Positions 5,079-43,794 of a stretch of 64,000 bases of DNA are shown piece after piece. Each line of letters starts with the position of its first letter. Position 1 is the stretch's first letter. This stretch comes from Acidobacteriota bacterium (lineage in GTDB: Bacteria; Acidobacteriota; Holophagae; Holophagales; Holophagaceae): assembly GCA_021794095.1 (NCBI GenBank), contig JAJYRN010000005.1, positions 1 to 64,000 on the forward strand, read 5' to 3'. The notes beneath the pieces were generated by a model. That model was given only the letters and a program-made list of their open reading frames with translations, was not told the DNA's origin and did no database searches. Position numbers and translations under genes: made by a program.

Positions 5079-6299
5079 TCAGTTGTTCTCGTCGTCCTTC
5101 TCCACCTTCTTCCGGGTGGGATCCTCGAGACAGACCTGCTCGCCGGGCTTGAGGCCGGAGAGGATCTCCACCCGCTCGAGGGTGGCGATGCCGGTGGTTA
5201 CGGGCACGACATCGAAGTAGTCCTTCCAGTGGTCGGAGAGCCAGATGAACTTGGCGCGACCATTCAGGCCGTCCCGGGCCCGGGCCAGATCCTGGTTCGA
5301 GAGGTGCTCCTTCAACCGGTACACCACCGTCTGGCCGTCGCGGCGCTGGAGGGCCTCCAGCGGCACGCTGATGGCCTTGTCTCGCTTCTCGCCGAGGATC
5401 TCCACATTGGCGCTCATGCCGGTGCGGAAGGCCTCCGACAGCTGGTCCAGGGCCACCTCGACCTTGAAGACCTTGATCTTCTCGACCAGGTCGGCGGCGG
5501 GCGCCACGAACCGCACCCGCCCCGTGAAGGATTGCCCCGGATAGGCGTCGAGGGTGATGCGGACCGGCTGGCCCACCTTGACCTTGGCGATGTCCACCTC
5601 GTTGAGGTTCACCCTCACGATCAGGGACTTGAGGTCGGCCACCGTGAAGACCACGGTGCCGGCGTTGAAGCTGCTCACGCCGGAGGTGATGGTGTCGCCC
5701 AGTTCCACCCCCCGCTTGATGACCACGCCGTCCATGGGGGCGGTGATCCGCGCCAGCTGGGTGGAGGCATTGCCGCTGATGGGGATGCCGCGATCCTCCA
5801 CGATCTGGTAGCGGGTCTGGGCGGCCTTGTAGGTTTCATCGGCCAGATCGCGGGTGGTCTTCGCGTTGCGATAGACCTGCTCGGAGATGAGGCCGGCCTT
5901 GAAGAGTTCCGACTGCTGGGCGAAATCGCGCTCGGCGTTCTTGAAGCTCACCCGGGCCTGGGAGACGCTGCCCTGCACGTCGGAAAGGGTCTGCGCCTGA
6001 TTCACGTCGGGTTCGACCTCGGCCAGGACCTCGCCGCGGTGGACCACCGCGCCTTCGCGGACCTTGAGGGCCACGATGCGGCCGGAGACGGCCGACTTCA
6101 CATCCACCTTGGTCAGGGGATCCACGACGCCCACTTCCCGCACGCTCACCTGCAGGTTCTCGGCCTGCACCTTCCCCAGCCGGAAGGGGGTGCTGGCTCC
6201 GGCTTTCCGGTCGGAACCGTCTCCGCCGCGCAGGATGAAGAACATGCCGGCCGCCAGGGCGATGGCGCCTGCGGAGACGTACATCCAACGCTTCTGCAT
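5079..6299 (-). CDS. Periplasmic adaptor (membrane fusion protein) of the ABC exporter
   Basis: The 406-residue protein belongs to the HlyD/RND membrane-fusion family. An N-terminal membrane anchor (YVSAGAIALAAGMFFILRGG) is followed by a lipoyl-like half (VDVKSAVSGRIVALKVREG), a coiled-coil hairpin (about residues 100-170), the second lipoyl half (ITAPMDGVVIKRGVELGD) and beta-barrel and membrane-proximal domains. The C-terminus is charged (KKVEKDDENN). The start at 6299 gives the anchor directly. An upstream in-frame extension to 6500 lacks any such signal. It should bridge the inner-membrane permeases to a TolC channel; one TolC-like gene is 13 kb away at 19691-21199. Confidence 0.9.
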   Translation of the reverse strand: MQKRWMYVSAGAIALAAGMFFILRGGDGSDRKAGASTPFRLGKVQAENLQVSVREVGVVDPLTKVDVKSAVSGRIVALKVREGAVVHRGEVLAEVEPDVNQAQTLSDVQGSVSQARVSFKNAERDFAQQSELFKAGLISEQVYRNAKTTRDLADETYKAAQTRYQIVEDRGIPISGNASTQLARITAPMDGVVIKRGVELGDTITSGVSSFNAGTVVFTVADLKSLIVRVNLNEVDIAKVKVGQPVRITLDAYPGQSFTGRVRFVAPAADLVEKIKVFKVEVALDQLSEAFRTGMSANVEILGEKRDKAISVPLEALQRRDGQTVVYRLKEHLSNQDLARARDGLNGRAKFIWLSDHWKDYFDVVPVTTGIATLERVEILSGLKPGEQVCLEDPTRKKVEKDDENN

Positions 6300-6630
6300 G
6301 GGAAACCCCTGAATGGAAAAGATTCCGGATGGGCCGGGCGGATTGAACAGCCTACGCACGACAACATGGTCCCGTTTAGAGCGTGGCGGATCCGGATTCC
6401 GGCCTGCGACAGGGACGGACCGGTCAAGGCCCGCCTTTTGCCGGGGATTGGCGGGGAGCGCCGCCCTGATGGCCCAGGCGCCGGTGCCGTCCCCGCCCAC
6501 CGGACAGCAGGTGGAGCGTCGGAGCGAGCATCAGGAGCGCCAGGGGGAACGCCAGGGCGTGCGCAAGGAGCGCCCCCGCTTCGTGGCCTATCAGAGCGAT
6601 TTGCCTTCAATGAATAAGCAAAGCCTTTGA
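6300..6630. other. Region upstream of the exporter operon, possibly with a small ORF
   Basis: About 330 bp with no confident gene. An ATG-started plus-strand frame at 6469-6630 would encode 53 residues (MAQAPVPSPPTGQQVERRSE... ending SMNKQSL), rich in Gln, Arg and Glu. It stops just before the mirrored repeat at 6631, but it has no clear Shine-Dalgarno, so it may be chance or a gene remnant. The exporter promoter should lie in the part near 6300-6400, but no convincing box pair was found. Confidence 0.3.
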
Positions 6631-6716
6631 AGCACGAAGACGAAACGACCACGACGAGAAGCCATGAATGCTGTTTCTATTTCTGGATTCGTGGTCTTCC
6701 TGTCTTCGTGGTGAAT
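6631..6716. repeat. Mirrored CACGAAGAC-type repeat 3' of ymdB
   Basis: The left arm (CACGAAGACGAAACGACCACG, from 6633) and the right arm (ATTCGTGGTCTTCCTGTCTTCGTGGT, from about 6687) form a long imperfect inverted repeat of degenerate 9-base units around an AT-richer middle. It begins 25 bp after the ymdB stop codon and could act as a terminator or mRNA end. The same design occurs at 39601-39667. Confidence 0.7.
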
Positions 6717-6741
6717 CTTTAGTTTCGATTGTCCATGGGCA

Positions 6742-7512
6742 TCAAAGTGTCCGGACGAGGCGTTCGATCCGCGCGGCGCGCCGGCCCTGGGTTTCGACGA
6801 GGATGGCGTGCAGCTGGAGGTCGCCATCGGCCACCTCGTATTTGGCCCGCTGGACCTTCAGGAAGCGGGCGAGGCTGGCTTCCTTCTTCATGCCGATGAC
6901 GCCGCCGTAGGGCCCCGTCATGCCGATGTCGGTGACGTAGGCGGTGCCACCGGGCAGCACCTTGGCGTCGAGGGTGGGGACATGGGTGTGGGTGCCCAGC
7001 ACCGCCGCCACCCGGCCGTCCAGGTGGTGGCCCATGGCCTGCGCCTCGCTGGTGGCTTCCGCGTGCATGTCCACGATCACCACATCGGCCCGCTCCTTCT
7101 GGAGCAGGGTATCCGCGCATCGGAAGGGGCAGTCGCAGGCCGGCATGTGCACCCGGCCCATGAGGTTCATCACGAGCACCTCCTCGCCCGAGCGGGTGTG
7201 CAGCTTGATCCAGCCGTTGCCCGCCGTGTCGGGGGGATGGTTGGCGGGGCGCAGGAGGCGCGGTTCCAGACGGAACGTGGCCTCGATGCCCTTCACATCG
7301 AAGGCGTGGTTGCCGGTCGTGATGACATCCACCCCCAGGCGTTCGAACCATTCCCGGGCGATGCCTTCCGTGATGCCGTGGCCATGGGCGGCATTTTCGC
7401 CATTCACGATGACGAGATCCGCCCCGGTTTCCTCGCGCAATCTGGGGACATGGCCTTCCACGAGCCGTCGGCCCGGCTCGCCCACCACATCGCCCAGCAT
7501 GAGGATCCGCAT
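6742..7512 (-). CDS. ymdB: YmdB-family metallophosphoesterase (2',3'-cyclic-nucleotide phosphodiesterase)
   Basis: The 256-residue protein matches the whole length of the YmdB family (TIGR00282). Metal-site motifs are in order: GDVVGEPGR at the N-terminus, VNGENAAHG, TTGNHAFD, an internal D-M-H-A and GTHTHVPT near residue 170. These bind a dinuclear metal centre. Bacillus YmdB is a cytosolic phosphodiesterase affecting biofilm and motility switching; the cellular role here is unknown. The gene lies directly downstream of a strong terminator that isolates it from the receptor genes. Confidence 0.92.
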   Translation of the reverse strand: MRILMLGDVVGEPGRRLVEGHVPRLREETGADLVIVNGENAAHGHGITEGIAREWFERLGVDVITTGNHAFDVKGIEATFRLEPRLLRPANHPPDTAGNGWIKLHTRSGEEVLVMNLMGRVHMPACDCPFRCADTLLQKERADVVIVDMHAEATSEAQAMGHHLDGRVAAVLGTHTHVPTLDAKVLPGGTAYVTDIGMTGPYGGVIGMKKEASLARFLKVQRAKYEVADGDLQLHAILVETQGRRAARIERLVRTL

Positions 7513-7520
7513 GTCTCCAG

Positions 7521-7554
7521 GCTAAACGAAATGGCCCCGCCGGAGCGGGGCCAT
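7521..7554 (-). terminator. Intrinsic terminator of the first TonB-receptor gene
   Basis: A perfect 10-bp stem (ATGGCCCCGC / GCGGGGCCAT) with a 4-base loop is followed on the minus strand by TTTCGTTT. It lies 23 bp after the receptor stop codon and just upstream of the ymdB start. Confidence 0.85.
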
Positions 7555-7576
7555 GACGCTGCGCGGGTGGGGCTGT

Positions 7577-10500
7577 CTAGAACTTCAGGCGCAGGCTGAG
7601 CTGGACTTCGCGGGGGGCCCGGTCCGGCGTATCAATGGCGCCGAAGCTGGTGATCGGGGTGCCGGTCCGGTCGAGGGCCGTGGTCTGGCCCGTGGACTGG
7701 TTGGCCCAGTTGAAGACATTGAAGACCTGGACGCCGCCCTGGATCTGGATGCGGTTCACGAGCTTCCAGTCGCGCTTCAGCGCCAGGTCGAAGTAGCGCT
7801 GGGCGGGCTGGCGCCAGGCATTCCGGCCACCGTAGCCCGGGGCGTAGTCGTTGTAGGTGCCATCTCCATTCAGATCGGTGGAGGCCATGGCGGTGTAGGG
7901 GAGGCCGGTCTGGTACTGGTAGGTGACGGCGCCCTGGATGCCATAGACCACGGGGAAGTAGCCCGTGAAGATGCCCCGGAACCGGGCATCGCTGTCACTG
8001 GGGGCCAGGTTGGCGTAGGGATCAGCCGGGTTGTTGGTGACGCTGCCGCCGTAGCCGCCGTTGTTGGTGATGCGCTCGTTGCTGTTGATGTCCATGGCCT
8101 TCGACCAGGTCACGCTGCTCTGGAACCCGAAGCCCGTATCGGACGTGCGCGAGGCCGTGAACGTGAGGCCGCGGTAGGTGCCCGTGCCGTTGTTCTCGGA
8201 GAGGAACACATCGCCGTAGCCGGTGAGGTTCACCTGGCGTCCGCGGATCATGACGAAGGGCTGGCGGGCGGTGCTGAAGGTGTTCACCGGGGTGCCGTAG
8301 CCGTCGTTGTAGAAACCGCCGGAAGCCGGCGTGAGGTTCACATTCACGAAGTACTGCTGGTGCTGAAAGACAGAGTACTCAGCCCGCACGCCAAGGGTGA
8401 GCCCGTTGTCGTAACGGTGATCCACTCCGAGGGAGGTGCTGATCTTCCGGGGCATCTTGTTGGCGGGATCCCACAGCTGGCCGGTCCGGCTGACGCCCCC
8501 CAGGGACGCGAGGCTGGCGGGATCCAGGGCCGTGAGGGCGGTGCCGTTCTGGGTGCGGGTGGCATAGGAGAGCGCGCCGCTGTTCCAGGCGGCGAGGGCG
8601 GTGGCGCTGGCGGACGGAGCGATGCTGTAGACGGTGATGGTGTTGCCATTGGCCGTCATGGTGTTGGAGACGGTCAGACTCGGATCCGGGCTGGTGAAGG
8701 CGCCCCAGCCGCCCTTCACGACGGTCTTGCCATCCCCGAAGAGATCGAGGCTGAACCCGAAGCGGGGATCCACCGCAGAGTTGCTGTCGGCCTGGTCGGT
8801 GCCCATGAACTGGGGATTCGGCATGGGGTTGTTCGGTTCGTTCTCCCGGGTGGCGCGGAAGCCGCCGGTGAGGTTCAGGCGGTGGTTCATGAAGCCCTGG
8901 TACTGCAGCTGGAAGAAGCCGGCCAGCAGAGAGGAGCTGTAGTCAATCCAGCCGCCGGTGGGGCTGATGGCGCCCCGGTAGAGCACCCGCGATCCTGAGG
9001 TGAGGGTTCCCTTCGCCCACTGGTTGGCCGTGGCATAGTCCGGGAAGCTGAAGAAGCCGCCCATGTACTGGGGGAACTGGTTCTGGTAGCGGAACCACTG
9101 GAGATCCACGCCGCCCTTGACCAGCCAGTCGCCCTGGGTCCAGGTGAGGGTGTCCAGCAGCTCCTTGTTGTACTCATTGAGCTGGCTCGGGGCGTACCAG
9201 ATCTGCCCGGAGGTGAAGCCGCTGGCCACGGTGAATTCGGGTGCCGTGGAATTGGTCGTGCGGGGATGCCGCTCATCGGCGACCTGGAGGCGCGCCTCGT
9301 TGGTCATGTTGGCGCCGATGCTGCTCACCAGCTCGGCCACCCAGGAGATGCTGCTGACCTTGTCCACGCCGTTGGCGCTGAGTCCCGTCTGGCTGCCGAG
9401 GTTCGTGCCATTGGTATTGGTGAACTGCTGGGTGTTCACGCGCAGGCTGGCACGGTTGTTCTCGTTGATGTTCCAGTCGAGGCGGGCAAACACCGTGGTG
9501 TTCTTCTGGTCGTTGGTGATGGGGGTGCCGCTCTCGGAGGCGAGGGTATGGCCGTCATTGCCCACGGGGATGGCGCCGAAGTTGGTCAGGAAGGTGTTCA
9601 GGTTGGCGACGGAATTGCCACCGCTGGAACTCACGCCGAAGGCGGGCGTGAGGTTGGTGGAGTAGTGCTCCGACTCCACACCCACGAAATAGAACAGCTT
9701 GTCCGGGATGATCGGGCCGCCCACATTGGCGCTGAACTGCTGCTGGCTGAAGGCCAGGGTGCGGGCCTTGTCTGAATTCGTGGTGCCGCGGGGATCGTAG
9801 GGCACCGGCCGGATCTTGGCCACGAGGTTCTGGCTGCGGAACTGATCCTGGATGTCGCCCGAGAAGGTGTTGGTGCCCTGCTTGGTCACAGCGTTGACCA
9901 CGGCGCCGGCCCCGGCGTACTGGGGATCGTAGGCGTCCGTGATGATCTGGAGTTCCTTCACCGTATCCAGGCCGAAGGAGAAGGGGATGGCCGTCCCGCC
10001 GCGGGGATCCCCGAAGAAGGTGGAATTGAAGCTGGTGCCGTCAATGGTGAGGTTGTTCATGATGCCGCGGGAACCTTCCACCACCTGACGGCCCGTGGCG
10101 CCGGTCACGGCGCCGGGGGTGAGCTTCATCAGGTCGGTGAAGTTCCGGCCCTTGAGCGGCACGTTCTGGACCAGCTTCTGGTCAATGGACACCATGGTGT
10201 TCACCTGAGTGGTATCCAGGGTCTGGGAGGAATCCACCACCTCGACGGTGGCCGCCGCCTCGACGGTGTCGAGCTTGAAGTTCGCCACCGTGCTCTGGCC
10301 GAGGGAAACCTGGAGGTTCGCATCCCGCACCGCCCGCATGCCGTGGGCAGTGACGGTCAGTACGTAAGAGCCCACGGGCAGCAGGCCGATCTGGTACTCG
10401 CCCTGGCCATTGGTGGCGGTGGTCCGGACCAGGCCCGTATCCGTATTGCGCAGGGTGATGGAGGCACCTGGCAGCTTCTTTCCGGAGGTGTCCTTGATGA

Positions 10501-25252: not shown

Positions 25253-25502
25253 ACGAGGGGGGACATCGCGAGGCGTAGACAAGCAGGCGGTCCCCCCTCG
25301 TTGATGCCAGACGCGGTGTCCCGGCTTGGCCGGGATAGCGCGTGAGGGTGCACGAGGGGGGACATCGCGAGGCGTAGACGAGCAGGCGGTCCCCCCTCGT
25401 TGATGCCAGACGCGGTGTCCCGGCTTGGCCGGGATAGCGCGTGAGGGTGCACGAGGGGGGACATCGCGAGGCGTAGACGAGCAGGCGGTCCCCCCTCGTT
25501 GA
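25253..25502 (+). repeat. Tandem array of the dispersed hairpin element (99-bp period, 2.5 units)
   Basis: Hairpins start at 25253, 25352 and 25451, each 99 bp apart and nearly identical; the first differs by one base in the loop. Each has ACGAGGGGGGAC and GTCCCCCCTCGT as a perfect 12-bp stem around ATCGCGAGG...GAGCAGGCG. The 49-bp linkers carry a second hairpin, TCCCGGCTTGGCCGGGA. The array fills the gap from 9 bp after the kinase stop to 2 bp before the purE stop codon, and may end both transcripts. It is not a CRISPR: there are no unique spacers. Confidence 0.93.
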
Positions 25503-25504
25503 TA

Positions 25505-25996
25505 TCAGGGCAGCCGGTCGTTGAGCAGCACCTTCTGGGTCTGGGCCTCCCGGTAGGCCCGCAGGCGGGCGCGGAGGGTCTCGTCGTTGCCAGCGAGAAT
25601 AGCCGCGGCGAGGAGCGCGGCGTTCACCGCGCCCGCCTTGCCGATGGCGAGGGTGCCGACCGGGATGCCCGCCGGCATCTGCACGATGGACAGCAGCGAA
25701 TCCAACCCGCTCAGGGCCTTGCTCTGCACGGGCACCCCCAGAACCGGCAGAAGCGTCTTGGCGGCGGCCATGCCCGGAAGATGCGCGGCCCCGCCGGCGC
25801 CCGCGACGATCACACGCAAGCCGCGGCCTTCCGCCTGCTCGCAGTACTTGAACAGCTTGTCCGGCGTGCGGTGGGCGCTCACAACCTCAGCCTCGAAGGG
25901 GATGCCGAGTTCCCGCAGCGTCTCCGCCGCGTGCTCCATCGTTTCCCAGTCTGAGCGGCTGCCCATAATGAGGCCCACCAGCGGGCGATCAGGCAT
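25505..25996 (-). CDS. purE: N5-carboxyaminoimidazole ribonucleotide mutase PurE
   Basis: The 163-residue protein is full-length PurE, which converts N5-CAIR to CAIR in purine synthesis and acts as an octamer in the cytosol. Key motifs: [26 protein letters not shown] (catalytic His), [12 protein letters not shown] and [24 protein letters not shown] with [13 protein letters not shown]. The start at 25996 gives [16 protein letters not shown], the expected N-terminus, and GGGAGG is 7 bases upstream. Two extra copies of this start lie upstream in a tandem duplication. purK is not next to it; purF is at 43886. Confidence 0.95.
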
Positions 25997-26099
25997 CGAG
26001 TACCTCCCATGAGAGGCCGTTCGCCGGCATCTCAAACCTGCCGTCTGAGCCAGCGAAGTCGGCGAAGAAGATGAGGCCCACCAGCGGGCGATCAGGCAT
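25989..26099 (-). CDS. Mini-ORF 2 upstream of purE (36 codons, from the tandem duplication)
   Basis: The copied purE start reads [10 protein letters not shown], then runs into [14 protein letters not shown]...WEVLDA and stops. The stop overlaps the true purE ATG in ATGCCTGA. It has the same ribosome site as purE (GGGAGG). If translated, it could couple to purE by re-initiation. Whether the peptide itself matters is unknown. Confidence 0.35.
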
Positions 26100-26202
26100 C
26101 GAGTACCTCCCATGAGAGGCCGTTCGCCGGCATCTCAAACCTGCCGTCTGAGCCAGCGAAGTCGGCGAAGAAGATGAGGCCCACCAGCGGGCGATCAGGC
26201 AT
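26092..26202 (-). CDS. Mini-ORF 1 upstream of purE (36 codons, from the tandem duplication)
   Basis: Identical peptide to mini-ORF 2, but preceded by GGGAGGTGACCC, a good Shine-Dalgarno that may be the original purE signal. Its TGA overlaps the ATG of mini-ORF 2 in ATGCCTGA, so ribosomes could pass along a chain of three starts. Confidence 0.35.
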
Positions 26203-26296
26203 GGGTCACCTCCCGGGAAAAGTCGAACAAAAACAAGGATGCCCCCTAACGTCCTGCTCCGCACCTTCCGATTCACTCTCTACCCAAGGAGGTCTC

Positions 26297-35137: not shown

Positions 35138-35824
35138 ATGCCTTTGATCCAGTCATCCGACCTGATCCTTGGGTGCGTCGCAGCCTTTCTCTGCGGCAGC
35201 ATCCCCTTCGGCCTCCTGCTGGTGAAACTCGCCGGCAAGGGGGATGTCCGGGCCCATGGCAGCGGCAACATCGGCGCCACCAATGTCAGCCGCGTGGGCG
35301 GCAAGGGTCTGGGGATCCTCACCCTCCTGCTCGACATCGGCAAGGGTTTCCTGCCGGTATTCCTGGCCCGGCGGGCCGATCTGCCCGTGGATGCGCAGGC
35401 GGCCCTGGCCCTCTGCGCATCCGCGGGCCATATCTTCACGCCCTGGCTGAACTTCAAGGGCGGGAAGGGCGTCGCCACCGCCCTCGGTGCCGCACTGGCC
35501 TTCCGGGCGATGGCGGTGCTGCCCAGCCTGGGTGCCTTCATCCTGCTGCTGGCGGTGTTCCGTTACGTGAGCCTGGGCAGCATCGTCGGCGCTTTGCTGC
35601 TGCCCGTTTCCATGGGCTGGGTTCATGAAACAGTCCATTCCGCAAATTGGTTCGGGGTGCAGATCCAGGCCAGTCTCCGTGAGCAGGATCCCTGGCAGGC
35701 CACCTTCTTCTGGGTGCTCATCGCCCTCGTGGTGGTGGCCAAACACCACGAGAACATCACCCGCTTGTTGAAGGGCACCGAATCGCCGCTCTGGGGCGCC
35801 AAGAAGGGAGAGCCCCGTGGCTAG
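35138..35824 (+). CDS. plsY: Glycerol-3-phosphate acyltransferase PlsY (acyl-phosphate dependent)
   Basis: The 228-residue inner-membrane enzyme transfers acyl from acyl-phosphate to glycerol-3-phosphate. Family motifs: FLCGSIPFGLLLVKLAGKGDVRAHGSGNIGATNVSRVGGKG (short pieces PFGLLL, GSGNIGATN), AGHIFTPWLNFKGGKGVAT, and the C-terminal VVVAKHHENITRLLKGTE. Several hydrophobic segments are present. There is an extra hydrophilic insert near residues 160-190 (HETVHSANWFGVQIQ) compared with a minimal PlsY. The end overlaps the gpsA start by 8 bp: the two enzymes act on the same metabolite. Confidence 0.95.
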   Translation: MPLIQSSDLILGCVAAFLCGSIPFGLLLVKLAGKGDVRAHGSGNIGATNVSRVGGKGLGILTLLLDIGKGFLPVFLARRADLPVDAQAALALCASAGHIFTPWLNFKGGKGVATALGAALAFRAMAVLPSLGAFILLLAVFRYVSLGSIVGALLLPVSMGWVHETVHSANWFGVQIQASLREQDPWQATFFWVLIALVVVAKHHENITRLLKGTESPLWGAKKGEPRG

Positions 35825-38531: not shown

Positions 38532-39584
38532 ATGAAGGTCCTGATCCTTGGCGTCAATGGCTTCATCGGCTCCCACCTGGTGGGCCGCATCCTCCGCGAT
38601 ACGGACTGGGAGGTCTTCGGGCTGGACCTGGGCACGAACAAGGTGGAGGAGCACCTCGGAAACCCCCGGTTCCACTTCGTCGAGGGCGACGTCACCATCT
38701 CCAAGGAGTGGATCGAGTACCACATCAAGAAGTGCGATGTGGTGCTGCCTCTGGTGGCCATCGCCACGCCCAAGGTCTATGTCACGGACCCGCTGCGCGT
38801 CTTCGAGCTGGACTTCGAGGAGAACCTCCGCGTCGTCCGTCAGTGCGTGAAATACAAGAAGCGGGTGGTCTTCCCCAGCACTTCCGAGGTCTACGGCATG
38901 TGCCCGGACGCGGAGTTCGACGAGCACGAGTCGCCCCTGGTGACGGGCCCGATCCCCATGAACCGCTGGATCTACAGCACCAGCAAGCAGCTGCTGGACC
39001 GCGTGATCTGGGCCTACGGCTTCCAGCACGGCCTGAAGTTCACCCTCTTCCGCCCCTTCAACTGGATGGGCCCCAAGCTGGACAGCCTGAACACCGCCAA
39101 GGAGGGCAGCTCCCGCCTCGTCACCCAGTTCAGCTGGAACCTGTTCAACGGCGAGCCCCTGCACCTGGTGGACGGCGGCACGGCCCGCCGCTGTTTCATT
39201 GATGTGGAAGACGCCATGGATGGGCTCATGTCCGTCCTGCGCAACGAAGGCGGCAAGGCCGACGGCCAGATCTTCAACATCGGGAACCCCGCCAACGACT
39301 ACAGCGTCCGCGAGATCGCCGAGATGATGATCGCCATCTGGAAGGATCATCCCTTCCGCAAGGAGCGCGGCATCCCCGAAGGCCGCATGGTGGAGACCGG
39401 CAGCGGCGAGTTCTACGGCAAGGGCTACCAGGACGTCGCCCGCCGCACCCCCAGCATCAAGCGCATGCAGGCCACCTTCGGCTTCGAGCCCAAGGTGTCC
39501 ATGACGGATTCGCTGCGGAAGGCCATTGATTTCTTCGTCGAGGAGCACAAGGCCCTCGAGAAGGTGGTCGAGACCGAGGGCTGA
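38532..39584 (+). CDS. NAD-dependent UDP-sugar decarboxylase/epimerase, ArnA C-terminal-domain type
   Basis: The 350-residue SDR enzyme resembles the dehydrogenase half of ArnA, which turns UDP-glucuronate into UDP-4-keto-pentose. Seen: LGVNGFIGSHLVGRIL, the acceptor-sensing FPSTSEVYGMCPD, catalytic YSTSKQLLDR (Tyr-x-x-x-Lys), FRPFNWMGPKLD and the late RTPSIKRMQATFGFEP. The ArnA-type Ser/Glu site residues were not checked one by one. The formyltransferase half of ArnA is absent, so it may be a stand-alone UDP-4-keto-pentose/UDP-xylose synthase. Downstream ArnT-like and ArnE-like genes support an envelope-sugar role. Confidence 0.88.
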   Translation: MKVLILGVNGFIGSHLVGRILRDTDWEVFGLDLGTNKVEEHLGNPRFHFVEGDVTISKEWIEYHIKKCDVVLPLVAIATPKVYVTDPLRVFELDFEENLRVVRQCVKYKKRVVFPSTSEVYGMCPDAEFDEHESPLVTGPIPMNRWIYSTSKQLLDRVIWAYGFQHGLKFTLFRPFNWMGPKLDSLNTAKEGSSRLVTQFSWNLFNGEPLHLVDGGTARRCFIDVEDAMDGLMSVLRNEGGKADGQIFNIGNPANDYSVREIAEMMIAIWKDHPFRKERGIPEGRMVETGSGEFYGKGYQDVARRTPSIKRMQATFGFEPKVSMTDSLRKAIDFFVEEHKALEKVVETEG

Positions 39585-39667: not shown

Positions 39668-39688
39668 GATGTTTTCAAGGTGGCACGC

Positions 39689-41386
39689 ATGACACGACGC
39701 GAACGCTGGACCCTGATCCTGATCTGGCTGGGGCTGGGTCTGCTTCCGCTCTTCGTGCGGCCCCTGTGGGAGCCGGACGAGGCGCGCTACGCGGAGATCC
39801 CGCGCGAGATGCTGGCCACGGGCGACTGGCTGACGCCGCACCTGAACGGGGTGCTCTACTTCGAGAAGCCCGCCTTCCAGTACTGGCTGTCGGCCATCAG
39901 CATGAAGCTGTTCGGCGTGCATGCCTGGGCGGCGCGCCTGCCCCTGGCGTTGGCTGCAGCCGTGATGCTCTGGGCGGCCTGGCGGCTGGCGAAGCGACTT
40001 GGGGCCCGGCGTCCCGTCTGGGCTGCCTTCATGGCCGCGACCTGTCTGCTGGGGTTCCTGGTGGGCCAGATCCTCACGCTGGATGCGCTCTTCAGCGCCC
40101 TGGTGGTCGCCTCCCTGGTGGCCACGCTGGAGGCGGTGGCCGCCCGGATGGAGGAACGTCCCGCCCTGGCCTGGACCCTGGGCGCGTTCACCCTGATGGC
40201 CGCGGCCTTCCTGACCAAGGGGGTGGCGGCCCTGGCGCTCCTCGGCCCCGCGCTGGTGGGCTCGCTCGCCTTCGTGAAAGGCCGTCCCGCATTGAAGAAG
40301 GCTGTGCTCGCCACCGCCTTCAATCCCTGGGGCTGGCTGCTGGGGACGCTTTTGACGGCGCCCTGGTTCGTGGCGGTGGATCGCGCCAATCCTGGTTACG
40401 CCTGGTTCTTCTTCATCCACGAACACATCGCGCGGTTCGCCACCACGGAGGCCCAACGGCAGGGGGCCCACAACTGGATCCTGGACAAGCTCTACTTCGT
40501 GGGCATTCTCGGCATCGGCCTGCTGCCCTGGCTGTCCGCCTCCGTGCTGGGGCTCCGCCGCGCCTGGACCTTCCTGGGGCGGCGCGGGCCCCAGGCGGAG
40601 GATGGCGGCTACGCCCGCTGGGCCGTGGGCGCCACCCTGCTGACCATCCTTTGGACGTTCTTCTTCTTCAGCATCTCTCACTCCAAATTGCCCCCCTACA
40701 TCCTGCCGGTAGTGATCCCCCTCGCCGCCCTGGCCTGCGTGTTCGAGCGTGAAGGCCAGGAGGGCAGGGCCCTCGCCCGCATGGGCAAGGAACTGGGCGT
40801 GCTGGCCCTGCTCCTGCTGGGGGCAGGCTTGGCCTTCTCCCGGAACCCGGCGGGCGGGTTTGGCTGGATTCTCGCCCTGGCGGCGGCCTTCGCCCTGCTG
40901 GCGCTCTGGGCCCATCGGCCGGGCACGTTGACGGGTTCGGGCTGGAAGGTGCTCACGGGGCCCCGCCTGATGCTGGGCCTGAGCGCGGCGCTCTGGCTGC
41001 TGGTCCTCGCGGCCCAGGCCACGGCGGGCCCCGGGAAATCCGTGGCGGATCTGGTGCGCAGCGCGCCACCCGATGCCCAGTGGATCAGTCTGGGCAGCTA
41101 CCACCAGGGCATCCCCTTCTATGCCCGCACCCGTTGTGTGGTGGTGGCGGGCACGGGGGAACTGGCCTATGGCCGCGATCATCTCGGGGCAGCCGCCGGG
41201 CGCTGGTTCAACGACGATCCCGCCGCCCTGAACGGCCTCGCGGACCAGCTGCGGGCGGAGGATCCCCGCCGCCCCGTGCTGGTGTTGGCCACCCCGGGCG
41301 CTTGGAAGCATCTGCCCGAGTCCATCCGGGCGGGCTGGATTGAAGTCCGGCGCAGCCCCGCAGGCGTGCTGGCGCAGCGGAAGTAG
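39689..41386 (+). CDS. ArnT-like membrane glycosyltransferase (1)
   Basis: The 565-residue polytopic membrane protein of the ArnT/PMT family (GT83-like) begins with the periplasmic first-loop motif LWEPDEARYAEIPREMLATG, where the Asp-Glu pair is catalytic in ArnT, and the following WLTPHLNGVLYFEKPAFQYW. About 11-12 hydrophobic helices and a C-terminal soluble domain (RTRCVVVAGTGELAYGRDHL) follow. It should move a sugar from an undecaprenyl-phosphate carrier to lipid A or another lipid/protein acceptor. ATG 39689 follows AAGGTGG; a GTG at 39680 in frame is an alternative. Confidence 0.88.
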   Translation: MTRRERWTLILIWLGLGLLPLFVRPLWEPDEARYAEIPREMLATGDWLTPHLNGVLYFEKPAFQYWLSAISMKLFGVHAWAARLPLALAAAVMLWAAWRLAKRLGARRPVWAAFMAATCLLGFLVGQILTLDALFSALVVASLVATLEAVAARMEERPALAWTLGAFTLMAAAFLTKGVAALALLGPALVGSLAFVKGRPALKKAVLATAFNPWGWLLGTLLTAPWFVAVDRANPGYAWFFFIHEHIARFATTEAQRQGAHNWILDKLYFVGILGIGLLPWLSASVLGLRRAWTFLGRRGPQAEDGGYARWAVGATLLTILWTFFFFSISHSKLPPYILPVVIPLAALACVFEREGQEGRALARMGKELGVLALLLLGAGLAFSRNPAGGFGWILALAAAFALLALWAHRPGTLTGSGWKVLTGPRLMLGLSAALWLLVLAAQATAGPGKSVADLVRSAPPDAQWISLGSYHQGIPFYARTRCVVVAGTGELAYGRDHLGAAAGRWFNDDPAALNGLADQLRAEDPRRPVLVLATPGAWKHLPESIRAGWIEVRRSPAGVLAQRK

Positions 41387-41392
41387 GCTCGA

Positions 41393-41668
41393 CTACTTCT
41401 TGAAGGCCTTTTTGATGCCGTGGCCGGCTTCCTTGGCGCCCTTGGCAATGCCTTTGCCGGCCGTCTTGGCGCCCTTGCCGATGGCCTTCCCGCCTTCCTT
41501 GGCCACATGCCCGATGGCCTCGCCACCTTCCTTGGCCGCATGGCCGATGGCTTTACCGGCCTTCTTCACATCCTGCCCAACTTCGTGGGCCGCCTGCTTG
41601 ATGTCCTGCTTCACGTGGGCCTCCCCGGGGGAGGCGAGCAGGGCGAGGGAAAGGAGGGCACCGACCAT
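41393..41668 (-). CDS. Small exported protein of five 11-residue repeats
   Basis: The 91-residue protein starts with a signal peptide (MVGALLSLALLASPGEA). Near the C-terminus it consists of five exact 11-mers in a row: KKAGKAIGHAA, KEGGEAIGHVA, KEGGKAIGKGA, KTAGKGIAKGA, KEAGHGIKKAF. The consensus is K-x-x-G-x-[AG]-I-x-x-[GA]-[AF]. Such hendecads form amphipathic helices in LEA-3 and apolipoprotein-like proteins. It is very basic and glycine-rich. The gene lies antisense between two ArnT-like genes and has TAGAAT close to its ATG, so the message may be nearly leaderless. Function unknown. Confidence 0.72.
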   Translation of the reverse strand: MVGALLSLALLASPGEAHVKQDIKQAAHEVGQDVKKAGKAIGHAAKEGGEAIGHVAKEGGKAIGKGAKTAGKGIAKGAKEAGHGIKKAFKK

Positions 41669-41720
41669 GCTTCCATTCTAGGCCCTTTGGGAAACGGCGC
41701 TCCCCGGTGAAGATGGGGGC

Positions 41721-43403
41721 ATGGAAGATCAGCAGGATTCCACCGCTCCAGGCGGATCCGTGGGCCGGTGGGTCCGCGCGAACCTGCCCGTGTTGCTGTT
41801 CGCCCTGCTGCTCTTGGCCGTACTGCCCATGCGCGATCTGTGGGCGCCGGACGAGCCGGATTTCGCCCAGTGCGTCAAGGAGATGCGGCACATGGGTTCC
41901 TGGCTGCTCCCCTACCTGAACGGTCAGCCGTACAGCGAGAAGCCGATCCTCTACTACTGGGTGATGAAGGCTTCGGCAATTGTGCTCGACCGGGTGACAG
42001 GCGGCCTCGGCTTCACCCAGGGGGTGGCGGCCTGGGCCCTGCGGCTGCCTTCGGTGGTCGCCTCCGTGGCCTTCATGGTGGCCTTCCAGCGCTGGATGCG
42101 GCGGTTCATGCCCGGCCGCGCGGAGTTGGCGCTGATGATCCTCGCCACCACCCCCATCTGGTTCTGGCAGTCCCAGTTCATCCAGATTGACCTGCTCTTC
42201 GCGGCCCTGCTGGCCTGGAGCTGGTTCTGCTGGCTGGCGGGCTACCTGCTGCTGGGGCAGGGCGCAGCGGACGAATCCCGCCGCTGGTTCCTCCAGGCAT
42301 ACCTGTGGCTGGCCCTGGCCTTCCTGGCCAAGGGGCCGCTGGCACCGGTGCTGTCGTTCCTCCTGGTGGGGGCTTTCCTGCTCTGGCAGCGGGATCTGAA
42401 AGCCCTGCGGCGCACCAGCATCGGGGCCGGACTGCTCATCACCCTGGTGCTCGTCGCGCCTTGGTACGTGGCCGCGGGCCTGAAGGGCGGGCCGCACTAC
42501 GCCTACCAGATGATCATCTACCAGAACTTCGACCGGGCCACCCACGCGTGGGATCACATCCAACCCTGGTGGGAATATGGCCGCTACATGCTTGGCGACT
42601 TCTTCCCATGGGTGCTCTTCCTGCCGGCGTTGGTCCTCCACCTCCGCAGGGACGGGGCCTTCCGCGATCCCCTCCGGCGCTTTCTCCTTCTGGCCTTCGT
42701 GGTGCCGTTCCTCTTCCTGAGCGCCGTGGAGAGCAAACAGGGCAAGTACCTGCTCATGGCCTACCCCTTCCTGGCCCTGCTGCTGGCGGATTTCTGGCAC
42801 GCCCTGGCCGAGCGTGAATCTGGAACCCGCGTCCGGCGTCTGGGCGGGCTGCTCGCGGCGGGGCTGGCCCTGCCGGCGGGCGCCCTCCTGGCGGTGGCCC
42901 TGGGTGCGGGCGGCGCGAAGCTCCAAGGCCAGGTAGGGCCCTACCTCGGCCCCATCCGCCTTATGGCCCTGGTGATGGTGGCCGGCACGGCCGCGACGTT
43001 GGTTTTGGCGCTCCGGGGCCGGGGACGCCATCTGGTTGCCGCCGCCTCCCTCAGCCTGGGCCTGCTGTACCTGGTGGGAGGCACCTGGGGCTTCTACCGG
43101 CTGGATTCGGCCAAGAGCTACCGGAGATGGACAGCCGCTGTCCAGCCGCTGATCGCTGGGCGGAAGGTCTACTACTGGCAGACCATCCGCAGCGGCGTGA
43201 TGGTCTACACCGACCACCTGATGCCCGAGATCCGGGATGCCAGCGGCCTGGCGCGCCTTGGGGCCGGTGACCGGCTGGTGGCCCAGCGCAACGAATGGGA
43301 GATGGACGCCTGGGGCATGACGCCCGCCCTGCGGGACCGGTTCGAGGTGCTGCTGTCCGTCCCCACCGGTGGCGGGCACATCCTGCTGCTGAAGAAGAAG
43401 TGA
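41721..43403 (+). CDS. ArnT-like membrane glycosyltransferase (2)
   Basis: The 560-residue polytopic protein is a paralogue of the one at 39689. It has the same first-loop motif (LWAPDEPDFAQCVKEMRHMG, then LLPYLNGQPYSEKPILYYW), about 11 membrane segments and a C-terminal domain ending in HILLLKKK. In place of EARYAEIPRE it reads EPDFAQCVKE, keeping the Asp-Glu pair, so acceptor or sugar specificity may differ. The SMR-type gene starts 13 bp after its stop, and they probably share a transcript with it. Confidence 0.88.
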   Translation: MEDQQDSTAPGGSVGRWVRANLPVLLFALLLLAVLPMRDLWAPDEPDFAQCVKEMRHMGSWLLPYLNGQPYSEKPILYYWVMKASAIVLDRVTGGLGFTQGVAAWALRLPSVVASVAFMVAFQRWMRRFMPGRAELALMILATTPIWFWQSQFIQIDLLFAALLAWSWFCWLAGYLLLGQGAADESRRWFLQAYLWLALAFLAKGPLAPVLSFLLVGAFLLWQRDLKALRRTSIGAGLLITLVLVAPWYVAAGLKGGPHYAYQMIIYQNFDRATHAWDHIQPWWEYGRYMLGDFFPWVLFLPALVLHLRRDGAFRDPLRRFLLLAFVVPFLFLSAVESKQGKYLLMAYPFLALLLADFWHALAERESGTRVRRLGGLLAAGLALPAGALLAVALGAGGAKLQGQVGPYLGPIRLMALVMVAGTAATLVLALRGRGRHLVAAASLSLGLLYLVGGTWGFYRLDSAKSYRRWTAAVQPLIAGRKVYYWQTIRSGVMVYTDHLMPEIRDASGLARLGAGDRLVAQRNEWEMDAWGMTPALRDRFEVLLSVPTGGGHILLLKKK

Positions 43404-43416
43404 CCTGGAGATCTGC

Positions 43417-43794
43417 ATGAGCCCCAACCTGAAGGCCATCCCCCTCATCGTCGTGGGTGTGCTGCTGAATGCCATCGCCCAAATCTGCCTCAAGAAGGGC
43501 CTCCAGGCCGCCGGAGGGATGCAACTCGCCTTTGGACCGATCATTCGATTGATGCTGGAACCATGGGTGCTGGCGGGATTGGCTTGCTACGTCGTGAGCG
43601 TGGTGGTGTGGCTGGGTGCCCTCAGCCTGGTGCAGGTGAATTTCGCCTACCCCTTCATCGCCCTGGGGTTCATTGCGAATGCCTTCCTGGCGAGGGCCTT
43701 CCTCGGCGAAGCCATGACGCCCCTGCGCTGGGTGGCCCTCGGCATCATCGTCGTGGGCGTCAGCCTCCAGGCCTTGAGCGGGGGGGGGCACTGA
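43417..43794 (+). CDS. SMR/EamA-type small membrane transporter, ArnE/ArnF-like
   Basis: The 125-residue protein has four hydrophobic segments, the size and style of ArnE/ArnF and EmrE: IPLIVVGVLLNAIAQICLKKG, WVLAGLACYVVSVVVWLGAL, VNFAYPFIALGFIANAFLAR, and WVALGIIVVGVSLQAL. The NAIAQxxLKKG wording matches the undecaprenyl-phosphate-aminoarabinose flippase family. With the ArnA-like and ArnT-like genes upstream, it probably flips the lipid-linked sugar across the inner membrane as a dimer. A partner ArnF is not seen, so a homodimer is inferred. Confidence 0.85.
   Translation: MSPNLKAIPLIVVGVLLNAIAQICLKKGLQAAGGMQLAFGPIIRLMLEPWVLAGLACYVVSVVVWLGALSLVQVNFAYPFIALGFIANAFLARAFLGEAMTPLRWVALGIIVVGVSLQALSGGGH

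Follow-up and report, generated by a model that had tools for sequence, protein, structure and literature searches.

The window, the whole analysed stretch of 64,000 nucleotides, contains a real gene for a conserved, single-copy and probably exported 3-11 helix protein built of eleven-residue repeats (hendecads), a finding somewhat more interesting than a lone oddity. The anatomy of the protein points, with about an even chance of being right, to a cationic 3-11 amphipathic helix of low hydrophobicity that resides in the periplasm and folds on anionic surfaces of membranes or LPS. The features of the locus are as follows, with positions in the window:

38532-39584, plus strand: UDP-4-keto-pentose/UDP-xylose synthase, decarboxylase half of ArnA (NF008872, 534.3 bits, cut-off 294)
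39680-41386, plus strand: transferase 1, ArnT-like membrane glycosyltransferase, convergent with the hendecad gene (profile and PDB matches)
41393-41668, minus strand: hendecad protein gene, 91 codons, ATG to stop (open reading frame, orthologues, pN/pS)
41396-41614, minus strand: six hendecads (residues 19-84) followed by a remnant of 7 residues (85-91), predicted 11/3 amphipathic helix (lag identity, moment, AlphaFold2)
41618-41668, minus strand: signal-peptide-like N-terminus, residues 1-17 (MVGALLSLALLASPGEA), n-region without K/R (sequence; hydrophobicity kept in members)
41675-41680, minus strand: TAGAAT, probable -10 element of a promoter, 6 bases ahead of the ATG (conserved in the Geothrix sequences)
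41721-43403, plus strand: transferase 2, ArnT-like/PMT_2 membrane glycosyltransferase, divergent from the hendecad gene (profile matches)
43417-43794, plus strand: ArnE/ArnF-like small EamA membrane protein (NF002816 35.1 bits, NF011625 32.4 bits, both under the cut-offs)

Coding capacity and selection

The open reading frame of the hendecad gene was found at exactly the coordinates given in the initial annotation, with an ATG start and 91 amino acids. Its description as antisense holds for the strand, but the gene overlaps neither neighbor: its stop lies 6 bases from the stop of the transferase gene upstream (41386), and the transferase gene downstream (41721) starts 52 bases away from its ATG.

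Open alternative frames can arise in GC-rich DNA, and three of the five other frames are likewise open, in 17, 23, and 22 of 24 Geothrix members. The chance that the hendecad frame is itself such an accident, from which no protein is made, is nevertheless practically nil. Among the 24 members, pN/pS was 0.36 in the gene's own frame and 1.24, 1.60, 1.42, 0.49, and 1.87 in the other five; the frame with 0.49 is low because it lies on the opposite strand, has its third codon positions in common with those of the hendecad gene, and mirrors its silent changes. By codon position, mismatches amounted to 0.18, 0.14, and 0.40, the third position being the most variable, and a promoter box is present at a fixed spot ahead of the ATG in all 34 Geothrix sequences. 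The reading frame at 41393-41668 is a genuine gene, conserved in Geothrix and relatives. Median dN/dS was 0.19 in the repeat part and 0.59 in the signal part, and purifying selection is stronger on the former. Homologues exist, and their absence, named earlier as a ground for refutation, therefore does not apply.

Hendecad repeats and helix periodicity

From residue 19, the protein consists of the units VKQDIKQAAHE, VGQDVKKAGKA, IGHAAKEGGEA, IGHVAKEGGKA, IGKGAKTAGKG, and IAKGAKEAGHG, followed by the remnant IKKAFKK. It had been described as having five exact repeats near the C-terminus. The eleven-residue repeat and its exact period were confirmed, but there are six full units plus the remnant, the copies are not identical, and they fill the whole mature protein. 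Adjacent units share 5, 4, 9, 6, and 8 of 11 residues, all six units differ, and KEGGKAIGKGA occurs only once. Identity at lag 11 was 0.56, and none of 20000 shuffles reached that value at any lag from 5 to 19. Downstream of the signal columns, 64-65 residues were found in 13 of 24 Geothrix members, 75-76 in six, and 86-87 in four, so that 23 members fall into three length classes 11 residues apart (L024, with 73 residues, is the exception); two aligned members from outside Geothrix have 84 residues. By these lengths, whole hendecad units are gained and lost in evolution.

The hendecad positions are occupied as follows: 1, V/I; 2, G/K/A; 3, mixed polar; 4, G/A; 5, A/V; 6, K (90%); 7, E/K/Q/T; 8, A/G; 9, G (83%); 10, K (73%); 11, A/G. 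Placed on an 11/3 helix, these counts would put one V/I line into a broad face of Gly and Ala, with lysines forming the opposite face. The protein is basic, as had been stated, with a charge of about +10 at pH 7 and a pI of 10.1 for residues 18-91, and net charges of +7 to +13 were obtained for all 34 Geothrix sequences (33 distinct proteins). Glycine makes up 20-23% and the large apolar residues (I+V+L+F+M+W+Y) 13.9%, and the mature part is free of Cys, Trp, and Tyr in the 34 sequences.

For the window protein, the mean-subtracted Eisenberg moment peaked, among the angles tried, at 98.2 degrees with a value of 0.571, which was reached by none of 5000 shuffles; an ideal 11/3 helix predicts 98.2 degrees per residue (360 x 3/11). 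The peak lay at 98.0-99.0 degrees in all 34 Geothrix sequences and at 98.0-99.4 degrees in all 15 sequences from outside the genus (moments 0.33-0.60); these sequences are mutually related, the distant ones were found via the repeat profile, and they are therefore not independent. Among 10200 composition-matched Geothrix shuffles, 2.8% peaked at 98-99 degrees. As the smallest Geothrix moment (0.456) is below the shuffle maximum (0.488), size alone is indecisive for single weak members; what decides is that all members agree in the angle. A repeat of 11 residues and a moment peak near 98.2 degrees, the marks of the 3-11 amphipathic helix class, are both present. AlphaFold2, run with five sequences, predicted a short helix (residues 3-10) and a long helix (residues 16-90) with a mean pLDDT of 63 and a pTM of 0.28. 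The helical hendecad protein that had been proposed is supported as a prediction.

Some coiled coils, too, typically show hendecad periodicity. With an apolar face as weak as this one, binding to membranes might be poor, and a coiled coil packed through small residues would be conceivable. Such a self-associating periplasmic coiled coil would form a tight hendecad bundle or fiber with the lysines outside and have no membrane role; its packing would bring together the V/I stripe and the flanking Gly/Ala stripes (positions 4, 8, 11 and 5, 9, 2). We regard both this assembly and this packing as unlikely. The two best PDB profile matches, a designed helical repeat protein (E 0.0045) and a designed coiled-coil peptide (E 0.0088), speak for it; these are, however, synthetic, low-complexity, and marginal, and the natural chains 2yv4 and 1klx matched the hendecad profile only at E 0.15-0.2. 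Moreover, the positive net charge would need neutralizing, and large core residues are few.

Translation start, promoter box, and export

In all 34 Geothrix sequences, TANNNT occurs once within the 60 bases before the ATG, starting 12 (28 sequences) or 11 (6 sequences) bases ahead, mostly as TAGAAT (23) or TACAAT (5). The ATG had been picked by its nearness to the profile start, independently of the box. Because the box lies at a fixed distance before the ATG, the mRNA is probably leaderless. The 15 sequences from outside Geothrix did not enter this count; on visual inspection, all lack a box at this position, and in L087, L089, and L090 a TA box is located further upstream, followed by a GGAG-like stretch. 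As a control, 337 early ATGs of 236 other long reading frames from the window and 20 loci were inspected: TANNNT was present at exactly 12 bases in 27 of them, many being orthologues of the same few genes, and at any other distance from 6 to 35 bases in 0-5. TANNNT at 12 bases thus seems to mark a set of probably leaderless Geothrix genes (window 41675-41680 and L036-L055). Transferase 1 of some genomes (L042, L046, L053) belongs to the genes with this arrangement, as does the window gene at 35138-35824, which we take to be plsY-like.

The excerpted text of Zheng et al. (2011, PMC3160421) uses TANNNT about 12 bp before the start as the criterion for leaderless genes, and the hendecad gene has such a TA-like signal at a fixed distance. 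Table 2 of the same source gives an average of 13.3% leaderless genes for three genomes of Acidobacteria, so that a leaderless start is expected biology, which also supports the ATG. The excerpt of PMC10783764 lists Holophagae among the classes using Shine-Dalgarno pairing, and the two modes can coexist. A scan of 41200-41900 for promoters and terminators found neither; as it recognized no sigma-70 promoter with a -35 box, the reading as a -10 box rests on conservation. An Rfam search around the gene returned one match only, far under the cut-off. An internal GTG start at residue 19, with the stretch GGGGGAGG just before it in the window, was rejected since this codon is not conserved while ATG and box are kept: among 29 Geothrix sequences, a set that enters two genomes twice, it is GTC in two (L015, L026) and CTG in two (L007, L024).

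The N-terminus resembles a signal peptide, its hydrophobicity is kept in 26 aligned members (by eye), and GEA|H is a plausible cleavage site in the window protein; the protein is probably exported, as had been assumed. An n-region without K/R is unusual for a signal peptide: K/R was found within residues 2-7 in 2 of 34 Geothrix sequences and in 10 of 15 sequences from outside the genus.

Relation to known protein families

LEA-3 proteins have an eleven-residue period, and a typical one is less cationic than the hendecad protein. The initial annotation had pointed to the LEA-3 periodicity; membership of LEA was not borne out: a genome search with LEA_4 (PF02987) at E up to 10 came out empty, and no LEA family matched any of the 26 aligned members at E up to 0.1. 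A disordered, hydrophilic, LEA-like protectant would have no specific partner and would shield membranes or proteins of the envelope during drying or freezing. The period, the predicted helix, the richness in Gly, Lys, Ala, and Glu, and the lack of Cys, Trp, and Tyr agree with this, and according to the excerpt of PMC6164224, brine shrimp LEA proteins carry long predicted amphipathic helices. We nevertheless consider it quite unlikely, as the hendecad protein differs from LEA group 3 in being cationic and probably exported and in giving no profile match.

At E up to 1, the window protein had a single match in Pfam, Entericidin (PF08085), with 17.1 bits over residues 30-45, about one and a half hendecads; this score, like the 19.2 bits of the genome search, is below the cut-off of 23.3 bits. 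Over the 26 members, at E up to 0.1, Entericidin matched three, Clavanin two (best E 0.016), and the suprabasin repeat, DUF7503, and Moricin (best E 0.036) one each, the best E overall being 0.0031. Clavanin and Moricin are families of membrane-active peptides. Entericidins have a lipoprotein signal with Cys, while the window protein has no Cys anywhere. One hendecad-like stretch resembles the EcnA/B profile, which would fit a small Entericidin-type envelope peptide with a toxin or antidote-like function; with a match of 16 residues against six and a half units, and in only 3 of 26 members, this is very improbable. In NCBIfam, an Ag473 lipoprotein match remained sub-threshold (20.6 bits, cut-off 100). 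By these profiles, no Pfam or NCBIfam family appears to cover this kind of small exported protein. Literature searches yielded no paper about such a protein by title or start of the abstract, which does not prove its absence from print.

In synuclein, lysines are located on the polar side, as in the hendecad protein. The Synuclein profile (PF01387) retrieved nothing from the genome (E up to 10), and no sequence homology to it was found. According to the excerpt of PMC6164224, 3-11 helices occur in apolipoproteins, synucleins, and perilipins, and the perilipin-4 helix is poorly hydrophobic. The hendecad protein shares with synuclein, perilipin-4, and exchangeable apolipoproteins the strict 11-residue period, one long predicted helix, and a weak apolar face (PMC6164224, in part). 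In contrast to them, it is bacterial, has a signal-peptide-like start and an even weaker Gly/Ala face, and is strongly cationic throughout.

Proposed mode of action

The interaction with LPS or membranes that had been suggested is still the best reading, although derived from anatomy only. The small protein would be made from a leaderless mRNA and exported, and its signal would be cleaved. The mature protein of about 74 residues would be one uninterrupted 11/3 amphipathic helix about 11 nm long, with one V/I per hendecad down the center of an apolar face otherwise formed by Gly and Ala, and with lysine (positions 6, 10) and mixed polar residues (positions 3, 7) on the opposite face. In solution, it would probably be mostly disordered, given a Gly content of 20-23% and a share of large apolar residues of only about 14%. 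Folding could be triggered by contact of the lysine face with an anionic surface, for which the head groups of phospholipids or the phosphates of lipid A are the likeliest candidates. By analogy to synuclein, perilipin-4, and membrane-stabilizing LEA helices, the protein may then lie flat as a weak, long, reversible membrane coat and thereby have a protective or coating role. Against this membrane-helix reading stand the low AlphaFold2 confidence, the high content of glycine, which disfavors helices, the n-region without K/R in 32 of 34 sequences, the loss of the gene in the genome G070, and the weakness of the relatives outside the family. More specifically, the protein might be a bacterial periplasmic counterpart of synuclein and perilipin-4, i.e. 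a single-copy cationic 3-11 helix reversibly coating the inner face of the outer membrane or LPS, with its length tuned by whole hendecads; this we put forward tentatively, as rather doubtful.

If membrane binding holds true, the protein would be a clean natural bacterial example of a design known from eukaryotic lipid-binding and stress proteins, and a kind of small exported protein outside the Pfam and NCBIfam families would gain a role. The 33 distinct Geothrix variants, many differing by whole units, are a ready series for relating helix length to membrane affinity.

Distribution among genomes

A protein search of 60 genomes (own included) detected the hendecad gene in 35, all of the same genus. 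With a profile from 26 members (alignment A1), 60 of 93 genomes of the class matched at E up to 0.01. The gene was present in 43 of 47 Geothrix genomes (own included) and in 16 of 30 other genomes of the family (weakest match G074, E 1.2e-5), and this profile matched none of 16 genomes from two other families of the class; not counted were the match of G070, which reached only E 0.002 and lies in a frame of 573 residues, and the additional weak matches that some genomes showed in long frames. Three of the four Geothrix genomes without the gene are 58-80% complete. The fourth, G070, is complete and has truly lost the gene, which is thus dispensable there. Where the gene would stand between the two transferase genes, G070 has about 120 bases (L097:3200-3330) that contain an inverted repeat, GGCCTGTCTTCAA...TTGAAGACAGGCC, and may represent a small mobile element.

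The own genome has no second copy, the best candidate being a match with E 0.096 and 29% identity. Plasmid and phage collections searched by protein gave no match, and of 600 pattern stretches found in viral contigs with alignment A1, none was confirmed. Outside the family, 11 of about 357 genomes (count by subtraction) matched the profile at E up to 1e-4. Nine of these were inspected; G153 and G164 were left out, the match of G164 being located in a 1052-residue frame. Elsewhere in the phylum, the matches are weak, and several are exported-looking proteins of the same 11-residue style. Those at L077-L083 from other Acidobacteriota (E 3.4e-9 to 3.8e-5) have a hydrophobic N-terminus followed by GK..GK/GH..KK units, and the three measured (L077, L078, L079) have moment peaks at 98.0-98.2 degrees; in contrast to the hendecad protein, L077, L078, and L081 carry another C-terminal stretch. 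They may reflect homology or convergence, which look alike in such biased sequence.

The Arn-like neighborhood

The two flanking genes had been called ArnT-like. Transferase 1 matches PDB 5ezm (E 6.5e-34), but both are below the NCBIfam ArnT cut-off of 567 bits, with 200.7 bits for transferase 1 and weaker 107.6 bits for transferase 2. By profile scores, the synthase assignment is firm, while the transferases and the EamA protein are sub-threshold and would be termed ArnT- and ArnE/F-like. An ArnB-like aminotransferase is encoded on another contig (391 bits, cut-off 631).

We compared 24 loci from 22 genomes, with L032 and L053 as well as L033 and L036 representing the same contigs and two loci (L034, L035) not being Geothrix. 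The order synthase (+), transferase 1 (+), hendecad gene (-) was found in all 24. Transferase 2 (+) comes next in 22; in L051 and L052 it is missing and the hendecad gene is kept. The EamA gene was seen in 23 loci, the exception being L035, which is truncated where its contig ends. In L098 (G064), the hendecad gene stands directly before the EamA gene, and the only transferase 2 match of the genome is about 225 kb away. In other genera of the family, 7 of 11 loci keep at least one Arn-like neighbor (L094 repeats the contig of L035), and no such neighbor lies within about 8 kb in the other four (L088, L089, L090, L095). For L088, L089, and L090, the respective genomes (G088, G089, G093) have synthase and transferase 2 located elsewhere, and among the genes flanking the displaced loci are those for an acetyltransferase, an acyltransferase, a YdjM-like protein, and an alpha/beta hydrolase, with no common theme. 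Conversely, genomes without the hendecad gene can still carry the UDP-4-keto-pentose synthase (e.g. G070, G073, G084).

The synteny is close in Geothrix, yet it is not needed. The constant gene order would suit a protein serving the Arn-like pathway, e.g. by holding or regulating the ArnT-like enzymes or by binding modified lipid A. Such a role is improbable, given the persistence of the gene without a local transferase 2 (L051, L052, L098), its displacement in 4 of 11 loci of other genera, and its opposite orientation with a promoter box of its own. The functional tie to lipid A modification that had been suggested thus finds no backing; the link to these genes looks like one of location only, and several loci speak against a partnership.

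Some further variation was observed. In L052, a glycosyltransferase family 9 (heptosyltransferase-like) gene (8231-9232) lies between the hendecad and EamA genes, where transferase 2 is missing, and in L037 an additional frame separates transferase 2 from the EamA gene. L053, the closest relative, carries between synthase and transferase 1 a gene (5829-7688) whose product has an aspartyl protease domain and weakly matches PDZ; the window lacks this gene at that place. Elsewhere in the window, two near-perfect tandem arrays with periods of 99 and 103 bases and about 2.5 copies each are located at 25253-25503 and 25968-26214.
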